Shown piece by piece: positions 5,274 through 40,994 of a stretch of DNA of 64,000 nt (its first letter is position 1; each line of letters starts with the position of its first letter). The position numbers were made by a program, and so were the translations under genes. Origin of the DNA: Polaribacter reichenbachii (GTDB lineage: Bacteria; Bacteroidota; Bacteroidia; Flavobacteriales; Flavobacteriaceae); contig NZ_CP019419.1 of assembly GCF_001975665.1 (NCBI RefSeq), forward strand, positions 1,860,001 to 1,924,000. Reading direction: 5' to 3'. The notes below the pieces were generated by a model that saw only the letters and a program-made list of their open reading frames with translations, was not told the DNA's origin and did not search any database.

Positions 5274-5885
5274 TTATTCGCTCTTATCGTAAGAATGTTT
5301 ATAAGGTGCTCCTGTAACTATTTTTAAAATGTCTTTTTCAAGATTTTCTCTTGGATATTCTACATAACGTCCTACCTCTTTACCCTCTTTATAAAAAATA
5401 AAAGTTGGTACTCTAATTATGTTGTAACCTTCTTGTAAATTATCGGGTGTTTTTTTGTTTCTACCTACTGTAACAAGTTCAAAATAATTTAAATCAAAAC
5501 CAGTTTCTTCTAGTATTTTATAAAAACGCGGCGTTTCTCTTTTACTGTCTCCACACCAAGTACCCATAAAACCTTTAATGGTAAAATCATTAATAATAGG
5601 TTTTAGTTTTTCTATGATTTCTTTGTTGGTATTATACTCACTATATCTGCTGTTAAACCAAGATTTATAAGAAGCATCTGCAAAAGAATTTTTATCAGCA
5701 AAACCAATTAAATAACCTCTATCGTTTTTAGTAGCACTTGCTTTTTCAGCTTTTACCTTAATATATTCTTTAGCTTTTACAACTTTTTTAGCTACTTCTG
5801 TTTCTTTGTTTTCTACAGTAGATTTACTTGAGTTACAAGCAAAAACAAGAGTAGTTAAAAATATAAATATGATTTTCTTTAGCAT
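5274..5885 (-). CDS. Thioredoxin-like lipoprotein with a single-Cys WCGDS motif
   Basis: The 203-residue protein has a lipoprotein signal (LTTLVFAC, Cys at about 17), a basic linker of about 60 residues, then a thioredoxin fold. FTIKGFMGTWCGDSKRETPRF carries the active-site position as WCGDS instead of the usual WCxxC, so only one Cys is present. The cis-Pro loop is visible as IIRVPTFIFYKEGKEVGRYVEYP. A monothiol protein of this kind cannot act as a normal disulfide reductase by itself; a redox-sensing or glutaredoxin-like role is inference. Its ATG overlaps the gpmI stop (TAATG, shared A at 5885), which implies translational coupling to phosphoglycerate mutase. Confidence 0.8.
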   Translation of the reverse strand: MLKKIIFIFLTTLVFACNSSKSTVENKETEVAKKVVKAKEYIKVKAEKASATKNDRGYLIGFADKNSFADASYKSWFNSRYSEYNTNKEIIEKLKPIINDFTIKGFMGTWCGDSKRETPRFYKILEETGFDLNYFELVTVGRNKKTPDNLQEGYNIIRVPTFIFYKEGKEVGRYVEYPRENLEKDILKIVTGAPYKHSYDKSE

Positions 5886-31814: not shown

Positions 31815-34202
31815 TCAAGCTTCTATTTCTTTTATTAAATCGTTAAAAGAAATGGTAGCTTTTTCACTAAAATCTTCTTGATAAATAACTTCTACTCTAA
31901 GCGCTTTTAATCCAGAAACACCCTGTAAATCTTCTAATTCTAAGTGTTCTAATTTACCCAATTGATTTTTAGATTGTAAATAAGAAATATATTTAGAATA
32001 TTCTACAGCGTCTTTATCTTGCGAATACACAATTGCAATTTTTCCTGGTACAGTTAAACGATCTTGAGTTCCTTTAATGTTTGCTTTATCAATACGTTTT
32101 TTTATGATTTCGTATCTTATGTTATAAGCACCATCAACATCAAATTGCTTTTCGTCCATTCTAAATTTTATAGCCATAGGATTACTATGCACTAAAATTA
32201 AGGATGCTACACGCAAATCGTTTTTCATATTTCTACGTTCGTAAAAAGCTAAATTTTCCATTTCACAAGTTACTTTTAGTTGCCATAAACGAAGGTTGTA
32301 TAAATACAGATTATCAAAAGTTTTAGAGTTTGTAATAGATTGCCCTATATACATATTATACTCCACTCCGTCTGTTTTATAACGTTCAAAATAATGTGGA
32401 AACATATTTTGAACATCTTTTTGTTTATTATCTAAAAATCTTGCTAGTTTATCATTTAAAAGCGTAACACTTTCTTCATATTCTTTTCTCTTTTCGTAAA
32501 CTACATTAAGTTCTTTGTCTAAACGATTCATATAGATTTTAACCTTTTGAGAAAGTTCTTTACTAATGTCTTTTATATGTTCAAAAACAGGATAAATTTC
32601 TCTGCTTAAAAAATCTAAAATACTTACTTCGTCACCAGCATTTAGGCCTTCTTGTACATCTTTTAAATACGAAGAAACACGAAACATTAATTCGTTATAA
32701 ATAGGTAGTTTTTCGGTTTTACATGCATCTTTTAAAACAGAAATAGCCAACGTTAACTGTGTAGTTAAATCTTCTTTTATAGCAGTATTTCTAGCATCAG
32801 AAGATCCTTTTATATCACTCTGACCAAATAAAGGATAGACTTCATCAAAAACAATTTCGTCTAATTTTGCATTATCACTAGTTAAAGACTCTTGATGAAA
32901 TTTTTCTGCAGCTTCGTAAAAACGCCATTTTACTGCAGGGTGTATTGATGTATAATTCTCTTGAATAGTTGCTTCTAAAACATTTTGACGTTCTTCTGAT
33001 GTTCTTTTAACAGCAGCTTCAAATACAGGAATTATATCTTTTAATTTATTAATTGTAACCGAATTTAAGTCATAAGCTCTTTGTGATGCAATTTCTAATA
33101 AAGCTAAATCGCCATTTTGTGTTGCTACAATTGGTATTAGAATAATACTTTGAATACCAGAATCATATAGGTTTTGATAAAAAGGATTTTTGTTGGTATT
33201 TAAACCGTATTGCTCTACATCAGAAATAATAAATGTTTCATGATCTACAAAAACTTTTTGCATAACTGCATCGCAAAAATAGCCTTCATTGCATTTTATT
33301 TCTGAATTTTTATTTAAAATAATACTGTTTGATTTTTTTACAGAATTTTCACAAACTTTTGAGTTGACATTATCGAAAATAGAAAAACCTAATTTTAAGT
33401 CTTTTATACTGTAAAAATCTCTTAAGTTATTTTGTAATTTGTAAATTAAATCATCTCCACCAGACAATAAGTTAGCCTTTATTTGAGATAACATTTCTTC
33501 GGATGTAACATCGAAAAGACTAATTAAACCGAAACCTTTAAAAATATAACTGTTAGGAGGAAACTTCTCTCTCCAAATATCGATATTCTCAAAGTTGTTT
33601 AAAAGCTCTTCAAAATCACTTTTGGTTAACTGAGGTGCATTTTCTGTTGGTATTACTTCAGAAAAATCAGCATTGAATGCAGCTCTGTAATATTTCATAG
33701 TTCCTGTTGTTTTATCAGGAATATCAAAATAAAAAGGTCTTTTTACATCAACATTATAACCATATACAAAGCCTAAAATAAAAGTACAGGCCATAATATA
33801 CATACTATCATCTTCAAAATTTCGAACGTTTAATTCGAAATCATCACCAGCATTATCTATTATATTTTTAAAACGATCTGTAAATTTAAAAGAGGTAAAA
33901 GAAAAAGGAACACTTGCTGCTTTAATTTCGTTTTTCAACAAAGGTTCTGGAAATAAAGGGTTTAACAATAATTCTATTTCTTCCTTATTTTTTTCTAGTA
34001 TTGAATAATCAGAAAATCCATCAATTAATTGCGGATGATTATTGAACAACGTAACCATATTTATAGCACCACTATGAAAAGGATGATCTTTATATTCGTC
34101 ATTTGCGTATTTCTCGAACATTACGAATACCTTTTTAAAAGATACGAAAAGCTGAAGAGGTAACTCTATATCGTCAAAATTATTAGATTCAATGATTCTC
34201 AT
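31815..34202 (-). CDS. Large cytoplasmic protein with a GAF-like domain
   Basis: The 795-residue protein has no signal peptide or membrane helix. The middle (about residues 265-400) resembles a GAF sensor domain: KLGFSIFDNVNSKVCENSV, KVFVDHETFIISDVEQYG, NLYDSGIQSIILIPIVATQNGDLALLEIASQ. The rest is helical with a long segment of Asp, Glu and Lys residues and no known catalytic motif. Large GAF proteins of this kind occur in Flavobacteriaceae without known role. A near promoter box (TAACTTTTG) ends only 4 bases before the ATG, so the message may have almost no leader. A 22-bp inverted repeat lies about 100 bases further upstream. Confidence 0.6.
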   Translation of the reverse strand: MRIIESNNFDDIELPLQLFVSFKKVFVMFEKYANDEYKDHPFHSGAINMVTLFNNHPQLIDGFSDYSILEKNKEEIELLLNPLFPEPLLKNEIKAASVPFSFTSFKFTDRFKNIIDNAGDDFELNVRNFEDDSMYIMACTFILGFVYGYNVDVKRPFYFDIPDKTTGTMKYYRAAFNADFSEVIPTENAPQLTKSDFEELLNNFENIDIWREKFPPNSYIFKGFGLISLFDVTSEEMLSQIKANLLSGGDDLIYKLQNNLRDFYSIKDLKLGFSIFDNVNSKVCENSVKKSNSIILNKNSEIKCNEGYFCDAVMQKVFVDHETFIISDVEQYGLNTNKNPFYQNLYDSGIQSIILIPIVATQNGDLALLEIASQRAYDLNSVTINKLKDIIPVFEAAVKRTSEERQNVLEATIQENYTSIHPAVKWRFYEAAEKFHQESLTSDNAKLDEIVFDEVYPLFGQSDIKGSSDARNTAIKEDLTTQLTLAISVLKDACKTEKLPIYNELMFRVSSYLKDVQEGLNAGDEVSILDFLSREIYPVFEHIKDISKELSQKVKIYMNRLDKELNVVYEKRKEYEESVTLLNDKLARFLDNKQKDVQNMFPHYFERYKTDGVEYNMYIGQSITNSKTFDNLYLYNLRLWQLKVTCEMENLAFYERRNMKNDLRVASLILVHSNPMAIKFRMDEKQFDVDGAYNIRYEIIKKRIDKANIKGTQDRLTVPGKIAIVYSQDKDAVEYSKYISYLQSKNQLGKLEHLELEDLQGVSGLKALRVEVIYQEDFSEKATISFNDLIKEIEA

Positions 34203-34443: not shown

Positions 34444-35628
34444 TTATTCTGCTTCAGGTTGCTTTAGATATGCAGGCCATTTTTTTAATTCATCTTTAAT
34501 TGTTGTTGTAACCTCATTATCGTCTTTTATGTACCAGCTTACGTTTTTATAGGTAATGGTTCCATCATTAGAGTAATGAAAAAATAAAATAGCATTTACA
34601 TAAGGATATTTAGTGTTAAAATCCTTGAAAGTATCTGCAAACCATTTTGCTCTATCTCCACCAGGTTTTAAAGAACCAAATTCTGCTATCATTATAGGTT
34701 TATAAAATGCGGCTAAGCTCTCGTAATAATTACCAAAAATTTCTTTAAAAGTCCACCAATCACTCCAGCTTGTACTAGTTCCGTAGTTTAAAACTCCAGT
34801 AGCAACTATATCTACATATTCTGTTCCAGGATAATATTCTTGAAATTTACCATAAGATAAATGCGGACTCCAAACCCAAATAATATTTGTTGCTCCTACC
34901 GATTCAAAAACATCTTTAACATGTTTATAAGCAGCAATAAATTCTGACGGATCATTGTTTTGTGGACCCCAAGGATAACGATATGGATCATTCATTTCAT
35001 GCCCCACTCTTAAATAAATTGGATAACCAACTTTAGCAGCTTCAATTGCCCATTCTTTTATATAAGAATCATAATCGCCATTTGCAACAGATAATAACCC
35101 GTGATTATTTCTTTGCTCTAAGGCTTTAATTTTTGGGAAATTTTCTTGTGAAAATTTTTCTAGCCAAGGCTCCCAAGTTATCATTGGTATAGATCCAATT
35201 CTTACAATTGCATCAACTTCATTTCTAGGAAACTCATAAGCTTGACCTTCACCCCAGGCCTTGTAAATATGAATTATTGGAAAGGTTAGGGCTAAAGAGT
35301 CTTCTAAATTTATAATATTTTCATAAGAAGCACCTTTACTATCATCTGATGCACCAAATAAAATATGTTTTGTTTTAAGTAAGGCATATTTATTTTTTCT
35401 TTGATCTTTAAACCAAGCTAATTTCTTTTCTCTATTTTCTTCTCTTTTACCTAAAATATTATCGTGTTCAATATCTTTAACAAAACTTCCTAAGTTTTCT
35501 AGAAACCCACCTAAAGGACCTTTTGAGCTTTTACTTACGGCTGTTAAACCATAAATTATAAAATAACCAAGTACTAAAGCAAGTAGTACATTAAAAAGTC
35601 TTTTAGATTTATTTTTAAATGATGCCAT
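34444..35628 (-). CDS. GH26-like glycoside hydrolase, membrane-anchored
   Basis: The 394-residue protein has an N-terminal membrane helix (about 12-31), then a spacer and a clan GH-A barrel. The acid/base is seen as YLRVGHEMNDPYRYPWG (E211) and the nucleophile as PIMIAEFGS (E316), with IPMITWEPW and IIWVWSPH in between; this is the GH26 pattern (mannanase, lichenase and others). It is the last gene of a three-gene unit with the GT2 synthase and the outer-membrane barrel, in the place where BcsZ, AlgL or PgaB-type hydrolases sit in other polymer systems. Its likely job is trimming or editing the new polymer in the periplasm. The glycan is not known. Confidence 0.8.
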   Translation of the reverse strand: MASFKNKSKRLFNVLLALVLGYFIIYGLTAVSKSSKGPLGGFLENLGSFVKDIEHDNILGKREENREKKLAWFKDQRKNKYALLKTKHILFGASDDSKGASYENIINLEDSLALTFPIIHIYKAWGEGQAYEFPRNEVDAIVRIGSIPMITWEPWLEKFSQENFPKIKALEQRNNHGLLSVANGDYDSYIKEWAIEAAKVGYPIYLRVGHEMNDPYRYPWGPQNNDPSEFIAAYKHVKDVFESVGATNIIWVWSPHLSYGKFQEYYPGTEYVDIVATGVLNYGTSTSWSDWWTFKEIFGNYYESLAAFYKPIMIAEFGSLKPGGDRAKWFADTFKDFNTKYPYVNAILFFHYSNDGTITYKNVSWYIKDDNEVTTTIKDELKKWPAYLKQPEAE

Positions 35629-35697
35629 AACTATGTTTGATTTATTTAAGTTTTTAAGATTTATTCAACTTATATGTTGATGTTTAAAACTTATATT

Positions 35698-37311
35698 TTA
35701 ATTATTTTTAATTTTAAATTTTTTATCGTCTGTTATTGTTATTCTGTTCCAAGCATTTTCTGCTTTAATAAACAAAGATTTATAGGCAGCGACTATACCA
35801 CCTATAAACTGTAAAAATGCTATCATCGCAAAACCTATCATTCCCCAGGTTTTTTCTGCTGTAAGAATAAGTTCTGATTGAGAAATATAATATCTTCTTT
35901 CAATATAAACTCCTACAAGCATTAAGATAAATAAAATACAGTAAATAATTAATGGTTTTACAAATGGGCTCATAAATCCTTTAACAGCTACTTTTGCTGT
36001 TGGTATATAAGGAACTTTTTTATTAATTATCGATAAATAAAAAGCATAAGTATACACAGGCCAACAAGAATATTTTAAAACCATACCTCTCCAATGAATA
36101 CCTCTTTCTGTTTTTTTATCGCAGAAAAAACTTTGAGCATGTGCATAAATAAGTATCGCAATTAAAATGATAGGACTACCTAATATCAAAAATTCACTAA
36201 AGTCCATACTGGCTGGAATTATTTTTGTTGCAAAAAATAACATTGGTACAAAAATAAAGAAAGCTGTCATTGGACCAACTAAATAATAAGTACCTATAGA
36301 TATATAAGATATTTTTTGCCAAAAAGTTAATCCTTTAGAAGCTTTTGGAAATTCATCAAAAAGCATTTCATAAACACCTCTTGCCCATTTTAGTTGTTGT
36401 TTACAATACGAAGTAAAGTCCTCTGGAACTAAACCACGACTAACAATTACGGGATTATATATAGATTTCCATCCTTTTGAATGAATTCTGATAGAAGTAT
36501 TTAAATCTTCAGACAAACCGGTTGCATGACCTCCAATACTTTCTAGAGCTTTTCTTCTAAAAGTACAATTAGCACCAATAGCTACTGCACCACCATAACC
36601 AAATAAACCCATTTGTGTAGGTCCGTAAAATGTATAAGTTTGTTCTGCAGCTCCTTGTGCGGTTAAAGAACGAAACATATTGTAATATCCTTGACTTACT
36701 TGAACAAAACCTACTTTTTCATCTTGGAAAAAACCTAAAGTCTGATCAAGAAAATTAGGAAAGACAATATGATCTGGATCTAATACAAGAATATAATCTT
36801 CATTTGTTTTTTTTAATGCTTCATTAACTTTACCTGCTTTTGCTCCAGGAATATTAACTAATTCTAACCAAACAACTCCATATTGTTCAGCTAACTCTTT
36901 AAAAGCAATATCTTCAGTATCATCAAGTAAATAGGTTGTGTGAGGATAGTTTAAGTTTTGTAATGCTTTAAAAGTATTTTCGAACATTGATAAAGGTTCT
37001 CCTGGAGATGATGTAGTAAAAACTGCTACACTTAAGTTTTTATCTGGTGTTGGAACTTTTTCAGGTTTTTGAATACGTAAATAATTTATCCAAATTAAAG
37101 CTACTCTAATAATTCCATATCCAAAAAATAGGCTCAAAATAATGAATAAAAAAAGGTTTTCAACGTGCTCTGCTCTAAACCACCATTCCATTAAATTAAA
37201 CATACTTATAAAACCTGCTATTGTTAGTCCTAAAAAGACAGCTTTATCTATACTAGTTACTTTTTTAGCTTCCTTAAACTTCCACAAATCATCATGTAAT
37301 TTTGCGCTCAT
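35698..37311 (-). CDS. Processive GT2 glycan synthase (cellulose-synthase-like)
   Basis: The 537-residue membrane enzyme has two N-terminal helices (about 21-75), a cytoplasmic GT2 domain and about five C-terminal helices. Catalytic residues are in place: DD (130-131) in TYLLDDTED, the DxD as DPD (178-180), the TED-like base as SED (267-269) and the QxxRW position as QQLKW (305-309), where Lys replaces Arg. It lacks a PilZ domain, so control by c-di-GMP through this protein is unlikely. Such synthases build beta-linked polymers and push them through the membrane. Its ATG overlaps the stop of the outer-membrane barrel gene (TAATG). Confidence 0.88.
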   Translation of the reverse strand: MSAKLHDDLWKFKEAKKVTSIDKAVFLGLTIAGFISMFNLMEWWFRAEHVENLFLFIILSLFFGYGIIRVALIWINYLRIQKPEKVPTPDKNLSVAVFTTSSPGEPLSMFENTFKALQNLNYPHTTYLLDDTEDIAFKELAEQYGVVWLELVNIPGAKAGKVNEALKKTNEDYILVLDPDHIVFPNFLDQTLGFFQDEKVGFVQVSQGYYNMFRSLTAQGAAEQTYTFYGPTQMGLFGYGGAVAIGANCTFRRKALESIGGHATGLSEDLNTSIRIHSKGWKSIYNPVIVSRGLVPEDFTSYCKQQLKWARGVYEMLFDEFPKASKGLTFWQKISYISIGTYYLVGPMTAFFIFVPMLFFATKIIPASMDFSEFLILGSPIILIAILIYAHAQSFFCDKKTERGIHWRGMVLKYSCWPVYTYAFYLSIINKKVPYIPTAKVAVKGFMSPFVKPLIIYCILFILMLVGVYIERRYYISQSELILTAEKTWGMIGFAMIAFLQFIGGIVAAYKSLFIKAENAWNRITITDDKKFKIKNN

Positions 37312-38819
37312 TAAATTTTGAAATTTATACCTAGGTTAATGTTTTTTCTGCTATAGAAGAATGTTTCTTGATCTATATAAGTGATATTTGCAATAAAATT
37401 ATTTGAAAAATTATATTTAATACTTCCAGTATATTCTTTTGGGGTAAAAGTAGCATCATAAAAACCACCAATCTCTGTTGTGTTAGATGTGGTTGTAACA
37501 GGATAAGGGTTTCTTATATTACCAATAAAACCATAATTTACTTTTGCTTCTAGTGATATTTTTTTGCTAGGCTTGTAATTTATAATAAATATACCTGAGT
37601 GTATTTCTTGTTCTTCTGGTGTAAAATAAGGATTATACACACCTACACCTTGGTTGTCAAAGAAAAAAAGAGTGTCTTCTGAATCTGTATAATTAAAGCT
37701 ATATCCTATTTGGAAATTTAATTTTTTAAATTTTATAGGTTGCGATAAAATCCAACTACCAAACGATTTTATGATATTATCATCATAAAACATTTGATGG
37801 TTGTACCAAGAATGCAAAACGATCCATTTATTGCTATAATCTATTTCGCCAAAAAGGCTTTGATACGTTAAATTAATAGAAGTACTAGCAATTGTACTTA
37901 GTAAGTTGTTTTTTGCATAACCAACTTTTAAGAACGTTTTTTTGAATAAATCTTTTGTGATGCTTAGACCCCCAATCCAATCAGATTTGTCAGAATGATT
38001 TATATAGATACCTCCAAATGCATTTGCTGTAAGTTTAAGCTTATTAAAATAAAATTGATTTTTTAATTGAATAATTAAAGCGTCTTCATTTTCTGGTGTA
38101 AAACTATATCTTGATACTTCTAATTGAGGATTTAAAAATCGTGAAACATATTCACCTACAACTATATGACTTACAAAATAATCTAAAGGTTGAGAATCTG
38201 TTTGGTATTCAAAATTAGCCTTAATATAAGTTGCGGTTACAGCGGCTATTTCTGCCTCTAAATTTTTTGTATAATCGCTGTTTGGGTAAATTTCATTGAT
38301 TTTGGTAATTAACCTTCTCGATTTTTTTATGTCTCCTTTCCAAAAATTAATGTTGGCTTGCATCATTAAGAATTCTATATTTTTAGAATTCTTATCTAAA
38401 AAACGAGATAAAATAGTTTCAACCTTATTTATCTTACCAATTTTATATAAAAAACGAGCATAATCTAATTGTAAATCTTTGTTGGTAGCATCAATAGAAA
38501 TGGCTTTTTTAAACTTATTATCTGCTTCTGAGTTGTTATTATTCATAGACAAAGCATAGGCATAGACCCAGTTTATATATTGGTTGTCAGAAAATTTATC
38601 ATAGTGTTCTGATAAAAATAAAACTGCATTATTGTATTCTTTTTTTGAAATATATTCTTTAGAAATTGCAAGTATTTCTTTTGCACTTTTTGTGTTATTT
38701 ATTTCTTTCTTTAAAGAGGAGGGATTTGACTGATTTTGAGAAAAAACAGCAATATTTAAAAAAAATAAGAAGAAAACAGTAGTAGTTTTTAATACATTTT
38801 CTACCCTTGTTATATTCAT
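37311..38819 (-). CDS. TPR plus YaiO-like outer-membrane beta-barrel protein
   Basis: The 502-residue protein has a signal peptide (FFLFFLNIAVFSQ), a helical region of TPR-like repeats (about 45-195: YINWVYAYALSMNNNNSEADNKFKKAISIDATNKDLQLDYARFLYKIGKINKVETIL) and a C-terminal barrel of about 300 residues with alternating strands, for example LTANAFGGIYIN and ISLEAKVNYGFIGN, ending in LGINFKI as outer-membrane proteins do. The TPR-then-barrel layout parallels BcsC, PgaA and the AlgK/AlgE pair, and the barrel resembles the YaiO type. It is the first gene of the synthase operon and probably forms the export pore or its scaffold (inference from layout). Confidence 0.8.
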   Translation of the reverse strand: MNITRVENVLKTTTVFFLFFLNIAVFSQNQSNPSSLKKEINNTKSAKEILAISKEYISKKEYNNAVLFLSEHYDKFSDNQYINWVYAYALSMNNNNSEADNKFKKAISIDATNKDLQLDYARFLYKIGKINKVETILSRFLDKNSKNIEFLMMQANINFWKGDIKKSRRLITKINEIYPNSDYTKNLEAEIAAVTATYIKANFEYQTDSQPLDYFVSHIVVGEYVSRFLNPQLEVSRYSFTPENEDALIIQLKNQFYFNKLKLTANAFGGIYINHSDKSDWIGGLSITKDLFKKTFLKVGYAKNNLLSTIASTSINLTYQSLFGEIDYSNKWIVLHSWYNHQMFYDDNIIKSFGSWILSQPIKFKKLNFQIGYSFNYTDSEDTLFFFDNQGVGVYNPYFTPEEQEIHSGIFIINYKPSKKISLEAKVNYGFIGNIRNPYPVTTTSNTTEIGGFYDATFTPKEYTGSIKYNFSNNFIANITYIDQETFFYSRKNINLGINFKI

Positions 38820-39044: not shown

Positions 39045-40994
39045 TTATAGTCCACTTACTGTACCAAAATTTTTCCAAACATCGCTTGCTTTGTATGTCT
39101 CAATAGAAGATGAAGGTACCTTTAATGTAGCATTATCAATAGATACATATTCAAAAACATTGGCTTCTATTGTTAAAGGCGTAGTTATGTCTACTGTTAC
39201 ATTTTGCAAACTACCACAATTATTAAATGCATTGTTTTCAATAGTTGTTATGCTACTAGGTATAATAACATCTGTTAAACTAGTGCATTGAAAAAAAGTA
39301 TATTCTGCTATATTAGTTACTGTATTTGGTATTGGAAAACTTGTTAAACTAGAACATAAACCAAAAGCAGTTTTTCCAATGCTAGTTAAGGTACTAGGAA
39401 AATTAACTTTTGTTAAACTACTACAAGCGTAAAATGTGTTTTCTGGAATGGTGGTAATACCTTCAGGAATTGTAATTTCTGTTACACTATTACAGCCTCC
39501 AAATGCGCCATCTTTTATAGTGGTTACAGTATTAGGTATGTTAATTTCAGTTAAGCTGCTACAGTTCCAAAAAAGGGTAGCTTCTATTGTTGTTAAACCA
39601 CTTGGTAAATCAAGGTTTTTTAAGCTGAAACAATTTCCAAAAGCTGCACTACCAATACTTGTTACACTACTAGGTAAACTGAGATCTTCTAAACTAGCAC
39701 ATCCATAAAAAACAGCATTTCCAATATTTGTTACACTATTAGGTATAGTTATATCTGTAAGATTAGAGCATTCATAAAATAAATTGTCTGATAGGCTTGT
39801 AAAATTATCAGGAATTACGGCTTTTGACATATTAACACATAAACCAAAAGCAGAGTCTTCAATACTAGTTACTGTATCTGGTATAGTAATTTCTTTTAAA
39901 ACTGAGCATGCATAAAATGCAGAATTACCAATTGTGGTTATATGACTAGGAATATCATAAGTTTCTAAATTGTTACAAGCATAAAAGGTAGCTTCAGGAA
40001 TTTTTGTATAACTAGATGGAAAAGTTACTGTGGTTAATGAATTGCAATAACCAAAAACTGCTGAACCCATATCCTCATTTGCCACACTATCTGGTATGGT
40101 AACATTATTTAAACTGCTGCAATAGTAAAATGCAGAATTACCAATACTTTTTATGGTAGAAGGTATGGTAATAGAAGTTAAACTTTCACATCCAAAAAAG
40201 ACATTTTCAGCTAAATCTTCTGTTGATGAAGGGATATCTATTGATGTTAAACTTTTACATTGCCCAAAAGCAGTATGTTCTATGTTTGATACAGCATCTG
40301 GTACATCAATACTTGTTATTCTCGAAGAATCATAAAAAGCTAACTGACCAATACTAGTAACACTTTCAGGTATAGTAACGCTTATTAAGTCATAACAATA
40401 CGCAAAACCTTCGTTGGCAACACTTGTTATATTATAAGTTAAATCAAATTGATCTATTGTGCTTGGTAAATCTAATGCACCTGATGGGCCAGCTTCTGAG
40501 CTTTTTTCTATAGAAACTTCTTTATTAGCTACATTTGTAATGGTATATTTAAAATCACCAATATCAAAAGTGGTACCTACTGCAGGGCCTGTTGCTGCGA
40601 TAACTACAACAGAAACAGTTGCAGAAGAAGTATCTCCATCACTATCAGTAATTGTATAATCGAAAGTATCTGTACCATCAAAACTAGCTTCTGGTGTATA
40701 ATCTATGGTGTCATCCGTTGGGTCGTTTGCTGTGCCTTCAGTATTTACAACAACAGTTCCTCCATTAGCTGTACTTGATGAAATTACAGAAATTGCTCCT
40801 GTATTAGGGCCATCATCACCAAAGTTATCGTTGTTTAAAACGTCAATGTTAATAGAAGTGCCAACATCTGTAGAAGCTGAATCATTTAAGGCATTTGGAG
40901 TGTCGTTTAAATCTTCTTCTTCAGTTCCAGCAGGGCTTGTACATGAAGCAAAAGCTAAAAATGTAATTGCGAGAGCGTATAAAAATTTTCTCAT
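39045..40994 (-). CDS. BspA-like leucine-rich-repeat lipoprotein with cadherin-like domain
   Basis: A 649-residue surface lipoprotein (signal ending LAFASC). Residues ~30-130 form a cadherin/VCBS-like Ig domain: SINIDVLNNDN, TIDYTPEASFDGTDTFDYTITDSDGDTSSATVSVVV. About 18 LRR_5 (BspA-type) repeats of 22-23 residues follow (about 190-620), with consensus L..I.IP..VT.IG..AF..C.SL. The last repeat has the usual capping tail (LKVPSSSIETYKASDVWKNFG). Such proteins mediate adhesion or substrate binding at the cell surface. It is probably a separate transcript beside the exopolysaccharide operon; its promoter is well formed. Many plus-strand frames inside it are antisense shadows caused by the repeat composition. 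Confidence 0.9.
   Translation of the reverse strand: MRKFLYALAITFLAFASCTSPAGTEEEDLNDTPNALNDSASTDVGTSINIDVLNNDNFGDDGPNTGAISVISSSTANGGTVVVNTEGTANDPTDDTIDYTPEASFDGTDTFDYTITDSDGDTSSATVSVVVIAATGPAVGTTFDIGDFKYTITNVANKEVSIEKSSEAGPSGALDLPSTIDQFDLTYNITSVANEGFAYCYDLISVTIPESVTSIGQLAFYDSSRITSIDVPDAVSNIEHTAFGQCKSLTSIDIPSSTEDLAENVFFGCESLTSITIPSTIKSIGNSAFYYCSSLNNVTIPDSVANEDMGSAVFGYCNSLTTVTFPSSYTKIPEATFYACNNLETYDIPSHITTIGNSAFYACSVLKEITIPDTVTSIEDSAFGLCVNMSKAVIPDNFTSLSDNLFYECSNLTDITIPNSVTNIGNAVFYGCASLEDLSLPSSVTSIGSAAFGNCFSLKNLDLPSGLTTIEATLFWNCSSLTEINIPNTVTTIKDGAFGGCNSVTEITIPEGITTIPENTFYACSSLTKVNFPSTLTSIGKTAFGLCSSLTSFPIPNTVTNIAEYTFFQCTSLTDVIIPSSITTIENNAFNNCGSLQNVTVDITTPLTIEANVFEYVSIDNATLKVPSSSIETYKASDVWKNFGTVSGL

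Follow-up and report, generated by a model that had tools for sequence, protein, structure and literature searches.

We analyzed a 64,000-nucleotide window of the Polaribacter reichenbachii genome (NZ_CP019419.1, positions 1,860,001–1,924,000; the whole genome forms a single 4.125-Mb contig). It carries a compact operon of three open reading frames, all on the minus strand, encoding in order of transcription an outer-membrane exporter, a glycosyltransferase family 2 (GT2) synthase and a glycoside hydrolase of family 26 (GH26). The operon probably specifies a synthase-dependent exopolysaccharide system belonging to a family that went from uridine diphosphate (UDP)-glucose to a cytidine diphosphate (CDP)-linked 6-deoxyhexose as donor, and in which the window's clade went back. 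Direct observation covers the genes present and their linkage, the predicted folds, the synthase residue pattern, the nesting of the window's clade and one cassette fossil. The original prediction had read the locus as a synthase-dependent exopolysaccharide machine, and the predicted folds (BcsC/PgaA/PelB for the exporter, BcsA for the synthase) uphold that reading; a cassette of CDP-sugar genes present in 17 of 30 closer relatives had escaped it. The genes lie as follows.

37311..38819, minus strand: exporter open reading frame, 502 aa, with a signal peptide (by eye), nine tetratricopeptide repeat (TPR)-type helices and a C-terminal β-barrel
35698..37311, minus strand: GT2 synthase open reading frame, 537 aa, processive, BcsA fold, no PilZ family listed
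34444..35628, minus strand: GH26 open reading frame, 394 aa, predicted β-glycanase with an N-terminal transmembrane helix (by eye)
35629..35697, no strand: 69-bp gap between the synthase and GH26 genes, the site of rfbF-rfbG-SDR in relatives (SDR, short-chain dehydrogenase/reductase)

Gene content and predicted folds

The gene order TPR/barrel, GT2 synthase, membrane-anchored GH26, as originally described, was confirmed by the open reading frames and their Pfam matches, as was the TAATG overlap of the first two genes, which share one base. The synthase matched PF13632, PF13641 and PF03552, all above cut-off, and its predicted fold is that of BcsA. The DD, DPD, SED and QQLKW motifs named earlier were all found, giving the D, D, D, QxxRW-type set of a processive GT2 enzyme. 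QQLKW was invariant in 24 of 24 aligned members and was also present in eight far relatives, those examined among 14 far matches (synthase 33–42% identical). Asp269 of the SED motif is taken here to be the general base.

36385..36399, minus strand: QQLKW, residues 305–309, a QxxRW motif with Lys for Arg
36505..36507, minus strand: codon of Asp269 in the SED motif, the equivalent of TED

The absence of PilZ and BcsB claimed earlier was borne out within the range searched: no PilZ family appeared among the Pfam matches of the synthase at E 0.001, leaving it without the C-terminal PilZ domain of cellulose synthases, and no BcsB family matched the adjacent genes at 31815–34202 and 39045–40994, to which that search was confined, the rest of the genome not being searched. 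The absence of a match to a named synthase system likewise stood. The best NCBIfam match, TIGR03030 (CelA), reached 170.9 bits against a cut-off of 699.1, and the PgaC_IcaA model TIGR03937 reached 69.8 against 422.3. A plain cellulose synthase whose accessory set has diverged, to which the top rank of TIGR03030 and the label 'cellulose synthase (UDP-forming)' given to family members by some sources would point, is highly improbable: the score lies far under the CelA cut-off, no PilZ family was found, the QxxRW motif carries Lys, and GH26 sits where cellulose operons regularly carry family-8 cellulases (according to the available portion of PMC5070118).

The exporter matched TPR_19 above its Pfam cut-off, and its predicted model has a barrel of 17 long strands. 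The nearest folds were BcsC, PgaA and PelB (matches BcsC/4y25/PelBC; 4y25, 9h80), so that model and fold matches together give the TPR and outer-membrane barrel of synthase-dependent exopolysaccharide secretion. No YaiO, BcsC or PgaA family was found for it among the Pfam matches listed (E up to 10) or in NCBIfam (0.1). A YaiO-type exporter was dropped as a candidate, with no supporting family match and nothing relevant on YaiO/YaiP in the literature searched.

The third protein belongs to GH26 (PF02156, 40.2 bits, gathering cut-off 20.2) and by sequence comparison is nearest a lichenase. Its best solved relative was Endoglucanase H (E 6e-34), with both catalytic glutamates recovered by the alignment and each invariant in 28 of 28 sequences; E109 and E222 of that enzyme are presumably acid/base and nucleophile, respectively.

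34996..34998, minus strand: codon of Glu211, in the alignment the counterpart of E109 in Endoglucanase H
34681..34683, minus strand: codon of Glu316, in the alignment the counterpart of E222 in Endoglucanase H

From the GH26 partner the original prediction had proposed a β-mannan or a mixed β-glucan. The glucan half agrees with the Endoglucanase H match; the mannan half does not, since the best mannanase reached only 5.5e-6. Synthesis of β-mannan from GDP-mannose, with trimming by a GH26 mannanase, is accordingly very unlikely, and the synthase also scored highest against cellulose synthases in sequence comparison. Three of the five far-relative synthases scanned (L090, L091 and L094) carry GT2 and GH26 domains fused in one protein, and this fusion speaks for the two domains working together. 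The L091 fusion gene lies downstream of a gene for a GH2-type TIM-barrel protein.

We propose that the GT2 enzyme would polymerize an activated sugar and thread the chain through its own membrane channel, that the TPR arm and barrel would take the chain across the outer membrane, and that the anchored GH26 would trim or release it in the periplasm. In the window's form the donor would most likely be UDP-glucose and the product a β-glucan.

A CDP-sugar cassette and residues 102 and 131 of the synthase

A contig scan gave 22 loci and whole-genome searches gave more; once duplicates had been merged, the closer relatives comprised 30 distinct loci besides the window. The duplicates L081, L083, L084, L087 and L088 were left out of all counts, and L003–L006 repeat loci that are counted under other identifiers. 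The co-occurrence proposed earlier as a check held among these loci. With the window added, 31 loci were compared: 30 yielded the exporter and 28 yielded GH26. The four misses fell at contig ends: L047 starts at the synthase, L049 stops inside it, L038 stops after the SDR gene and L043 stops 151 bases past the synthase. The three genes thus stay linked in closer relatives wherever the contig permits. Among the far relatives, none of eight had the exporter and five had a GH26 match.

In 17 of the 30 closer relatives, genes for a glucose-1-phosphate cytidylyltransferase, a CDP-glucose 4,6-dehydratase and an SDR follow the synthase gene, and GH26 comes after this cassette in 16; the contig of the 17th, L038, stops there. 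Polaribacter vadi and Flavobacterium aciduliphilum are among the sources of cassette-type synthases. Ten further loci were cassette-free, two were cut off and one was odd. The compact three-gene set originally described therefore exists, but as the minority form (10 versus 17 with the cassette). At locus L034, the cytidylyltransferase matched TIGR02623 with 392 bits (cut-off 300.25) and the dehydratase TIGR02622 with 483.3 bits (cut-off 278.45); the genes overlap or nearly touch, with spacings of 17, −16, −13 and 2 bp, and the locus holds no further glycosyltransferase gene. Because no RfbH was found between the cassette genes of L034 and L045, the expected product would be a 6-deoxyhexose rather than a 3,6-dideoxyhexose. 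At L037 (7623–9493), the cytidylyltransferase and the dehydratase are 57% and 83% identical to their L034 counterparts, as if the cytidylyltransferase gene had been swapped in one lineage.

Presence of the cassette coincided with two residues of the synthase.

36919..36921, minus strand: codon GAT for Asp131, which is the second Asp of the DD motif; cassette-bearing relatives have Ser here (AGT/AGC)
37006..37008, minus strand: codon TCT for Ser102, placed by alignment in the uracil-pocket loop; cassette-bearing relatives have Ala here

All 17 cassette synthases had Ala102 and Ser131, and all 11 cassette-free ones, the window included, had Ser102 and Asp131; outside both groups stand L043 and L049 (contig ends), the odd locus L052 and the eight far relatives. 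In ten of 541 synthase columns the two groups had no letter in common, and only columns 102 and 131 were fixed in a single state in each group. No group-fixed column was found in GH26 or the exporter. In 16 loci and the window, Ser131 is encoded by AGT or AGC and Asp131 by GAT or GAC, two changes apart. L043 and L049 also have Ser131, at contigs that end.

We extended the comparison to 148 rows (the window, 27 loci and 120 of 2,388 proteins, some of the latter near-copies of loci). The states at 102 and 131 were Ala-Ser in 97 rows, Ser-Asp in 37, Ala-Gly in 12 (P0115, P0137, P0138, P0151, P0153, P0154, P0164, P0167, P0170, P0171, P0182 and P0183), Ser-Asn in one and Thr-Asp in one, the latter being L052. 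With position 131 classed as D/N versus S/G, column 102 had a normalized mutual information of 1.0, the next best column reaching 0.85. At 131, seven of the eight far relatives have Glu and one has Asp; none has the cassette.

According to the available text of PMC10592267, Asp294 in the DDG motif of poplar CesA8 is at hydrogen-bond distance from the uracil ring nitrogen, the uridine groove is built by STVDP residues, and DDG is called invariant in cellulose synthase. Asp294 is the second Asp of DDG by the numbering of 6wlb (offset 13, which also yields Ser258, Val260 and Glu265); residue 131 aligns with D180 of RsBcsA (4hg6), hence with Asp294. In the predicted model, 131 lies just past strand 124–130 and 102 just past strand 95–101, which therefore places 102 in the STVDP-equivalent loop. 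The N3 of cytosine carries no hydrogen, so that Ser for Asp at 131 is chemically plausible with a CDP donor.

In cassette-bearing relatives, the same machine would most likely be fed a CDP-6-deoxyhexose that the enzymes of the cassette produce, from CDP-glucose through CDP-4-keto-6-deoxyglucose to its C4-reduced form, and the base-pocket residues would differ to suit that donor (Ser for Asp131, Ala for Ser102). In the window's clade, the cassette would then have been lost and both residues would have reverted. The donors, the products, the SDR reaction and the order of the residue changes are inferred.

Loss of the cassette and competing readings

In a tree of 34 synthases, from which the partial genes L047 and L049 were left out, the window's clade (five rows, 100/99) was nested in a larger clade of 22 rows (100/99), and the 17 rows outside the window's clade all carry Ser131 there; L050, L051 and L089, three-gene forms with Asp131, fell outside the larger clade. 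In a 148-row tree built without columns 102 and 131, the window's clade (12 rows, all Asp131) stood beside mostly Ser131 rows. Position 131 switched independently three times on well-supported branches and four times in all, and 102 switched along in all three.

The window's clade includes L086, from genome G016, whose 272-bp gap between the synthase and GH26 genes (5391–5662) matched the 3′ part of the SDR gene of five of six cassettes in the same orientation. The best match had an E of 1.4e-14, with 78% identity over 89 bp, against 3e-4 for the best of 500 dinucleotide shuffles of that gap. Because of this decayed SDR piece and the nesting, we conclude that the cassette was once present in the window's clade and later lost; the remnant supports this direction as a fossil. 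A candidate remnant in the L032 gap (E 2.3e-4 over 54 bp) was rejected, its own shuffles reaching that level (6 of 500 at ≤1e-4).

Both CDP families exceeded their cut-offs in all seven cassette genomes searched, where the cassette genes themselves account for the copies, and in one of eight cassette-free genomes, G016. There the CDP genes lie elsewhere, clustered with RfbH (728.6 bits, cut-off 423), and their products are 51–59% identical to the L034 proteins. Family searches of the window's genome found neither family over cut-off, and a search with the L034 dehydratase returned only distant SDRs (best 33%, E 1e-14), which we did not accept as a CDP pathway.

Several observations weigh against a change of donor and its reversal. 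The independent switches are few (sign test for 102 with 131, p 0.25), only two cassette switches are visible, and GH26 fails to separate cassette-bearing from cassette-free forms. These first points, together with the ten separating columns, favor an alternative in which all members polymerize UDP-glucose, the cassette serves another glycan or a decoration elsewhere and sits in the operon for co-expression, and the residues are lineage marks. The uracil contact of residue 102 is placed by alignment only, and the synthase–GH26 gaps of the window, L032, L033 and L080 yielded no cassette remnant of significance (for the window, L033 and L080, no match to cassettes at E 0.01). L052 fits neither group: a diverged rfbF-rfbG-SDR set lies inverted upstream of its synthase (37–2824), which has Thr102 and an altered DD motif (Thr130-Asp131). 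In L043, which has Ser131, no rfbF start is visible by eye within the last 151 bases, and G177, one of four far-relative genomes searched, has a CDP-glucose dehydratase over cut-off without a synthase of the Ser131 type. The 12 Gly131 synthases and the lone reversions P0111 and P0180 are known as proteins without gene context. Finally, the cassette SDR reached no NCBIfam cut-off (best among the matches listed, LegB, 130 of 475 bits), and among solved structures it matched a 4-keto-6-deoxyhexose reductase best (E 2.8e-34), with a UDP-glucose 4-epimerase almost level (2.3e-33).

Statistics alone leave the link between residues and donor unsettled. Nevertheless, we consider it unlikely that all members use UDP-glucose: the L034 locus offers no other glycosyltransferase gene that the cassette might serve, both group-fixed columns fall at the ends of two strands lining the uracil pocket, and the window's clade regained the outgroup state at both residues where the cassette was lost. 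The donor-change reading is therefore the one we favor. Its most specific form, in which BcsA-like synthases changed the donor nucleotide to make a 6-deoxyhexose homopolymer and the window's clade is a natural revertant with both residues regained, we hold to be evenly balanced; the 6-deoxyhexose would perhaps be quinovose, giving a cellulose-like chain without the C6 hydroxyl. If true, it would identify the two residues by which a processive polysaccharide synthase selects its nucleotide, a rare handle given that the available text of PMC10592267 calls DDG invariant in cellulose synthase, and would point to a 6-deoxy-sugar polymer in Bacteroidota of which the literature searched yielded no description. 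It would also supply natural before-and-after synthase pairs, ~80% identical, for direct biochemical comparison.

The distribution of the synthase is patchy. The nearest named loci (synthase 80–87% identical) come from records of Polaribacter and Flavobacteriaceae and from one bin that bears the name Pseudopedobacter; the remaining loci are scattered over Bacteroidota. At E ≤1e-130, with its own genome included, the synthase turned up in 9 of the 166 genus genomes, in 3 of 397 at family level and in 2 of 395 at class level, and the L045 protein as query hit 2 of 376 genomes of the order and 3 of 148 of the family of G249. No relatives were found in viral contigs. A second, distant GT2 protein in the window's genome (G000:C1:636971-637987) is 25% identical to the synthase and has counterparts in open frames of ~497–502 aa in many genomes of the genus. 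Directly upstream of the exporter and on the same strand lies a gene for a BspA-type leucine-rich repeat protein (39045–40994), with a relative at that place in L032–L036; its product may be a surface partner of the polymer.

Comparison with known systems

No CDP-sugar-using processive GT2 synthase was found in the open-licence literature, searched short of full texts, and the literature searched held no match to this system, a Polaribacter synthase or a quinovose homopolymer. The main text of PMC7112194, a survey of synthase-dependent operons, lacks the terms Bacteroidetes, GH26, CDP and Flavobacter. The operon resembles bacterial cellulose synthesis (BcsA/BcsC) in its BcsA fold, processive motifs, TPR and barrel exporter and hydrolase partner, and differs in having no PilZ domain, no adjacent BcsB gene, Lys in QxxRW, a GH26 hydrolase, a score under the CelA cut-off and, in the 17 relatives, the CDP-sugar cassette. 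Poly-N-acetylglucosamine (PgaA/PgaC) and Pel (PelB) systems share an exporter of similar predicted fold (4y25, 9h80), whereas the window's operon has no adjacent deacetylase gene and its synthase stays far below the PgaC_IcaA model.

The mixed-linkage glucan synthases BgsA of Sinorhizobium meliloti and RiGT2 of Romboutsia ilealis are also GT2 enzymes, likened here by description and not by sequence; in the available text of PMC10374906, BgsA is without PilZ and RiGT2 without a clustered bcsB gene, and the term GH26 is absent from the main text. RiGT2 carries a PilZ domain, unlike the window synthase. Bacterial polysialyltransferases use a cytidine nucleotide sugar as donor, belong to another glycosyltransferase family and fold, and, unlike the window synthase, have no BcsA-like channel. 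As proposed here, a single enzyme of that kind builds a homopolymer (available portion of PMC5517516). In the capsule pathway of Campylobacter jejuni HS:41, a cytidylyltransferase, a CDP-glucose 4,6-dehydratase and a C4-reductase together yield CDP-D-fucose, a route to a CDP-6-deoxyhexose like that of the cassette; its sugar passes via a mutase into the capsule repeat, whereas the cassette genes lie within the synthase operon (in the part of PMC12369002 available). The machine itself is of a known kind, and the apparent change of donor nucleotide with its reversal is the unusual part.
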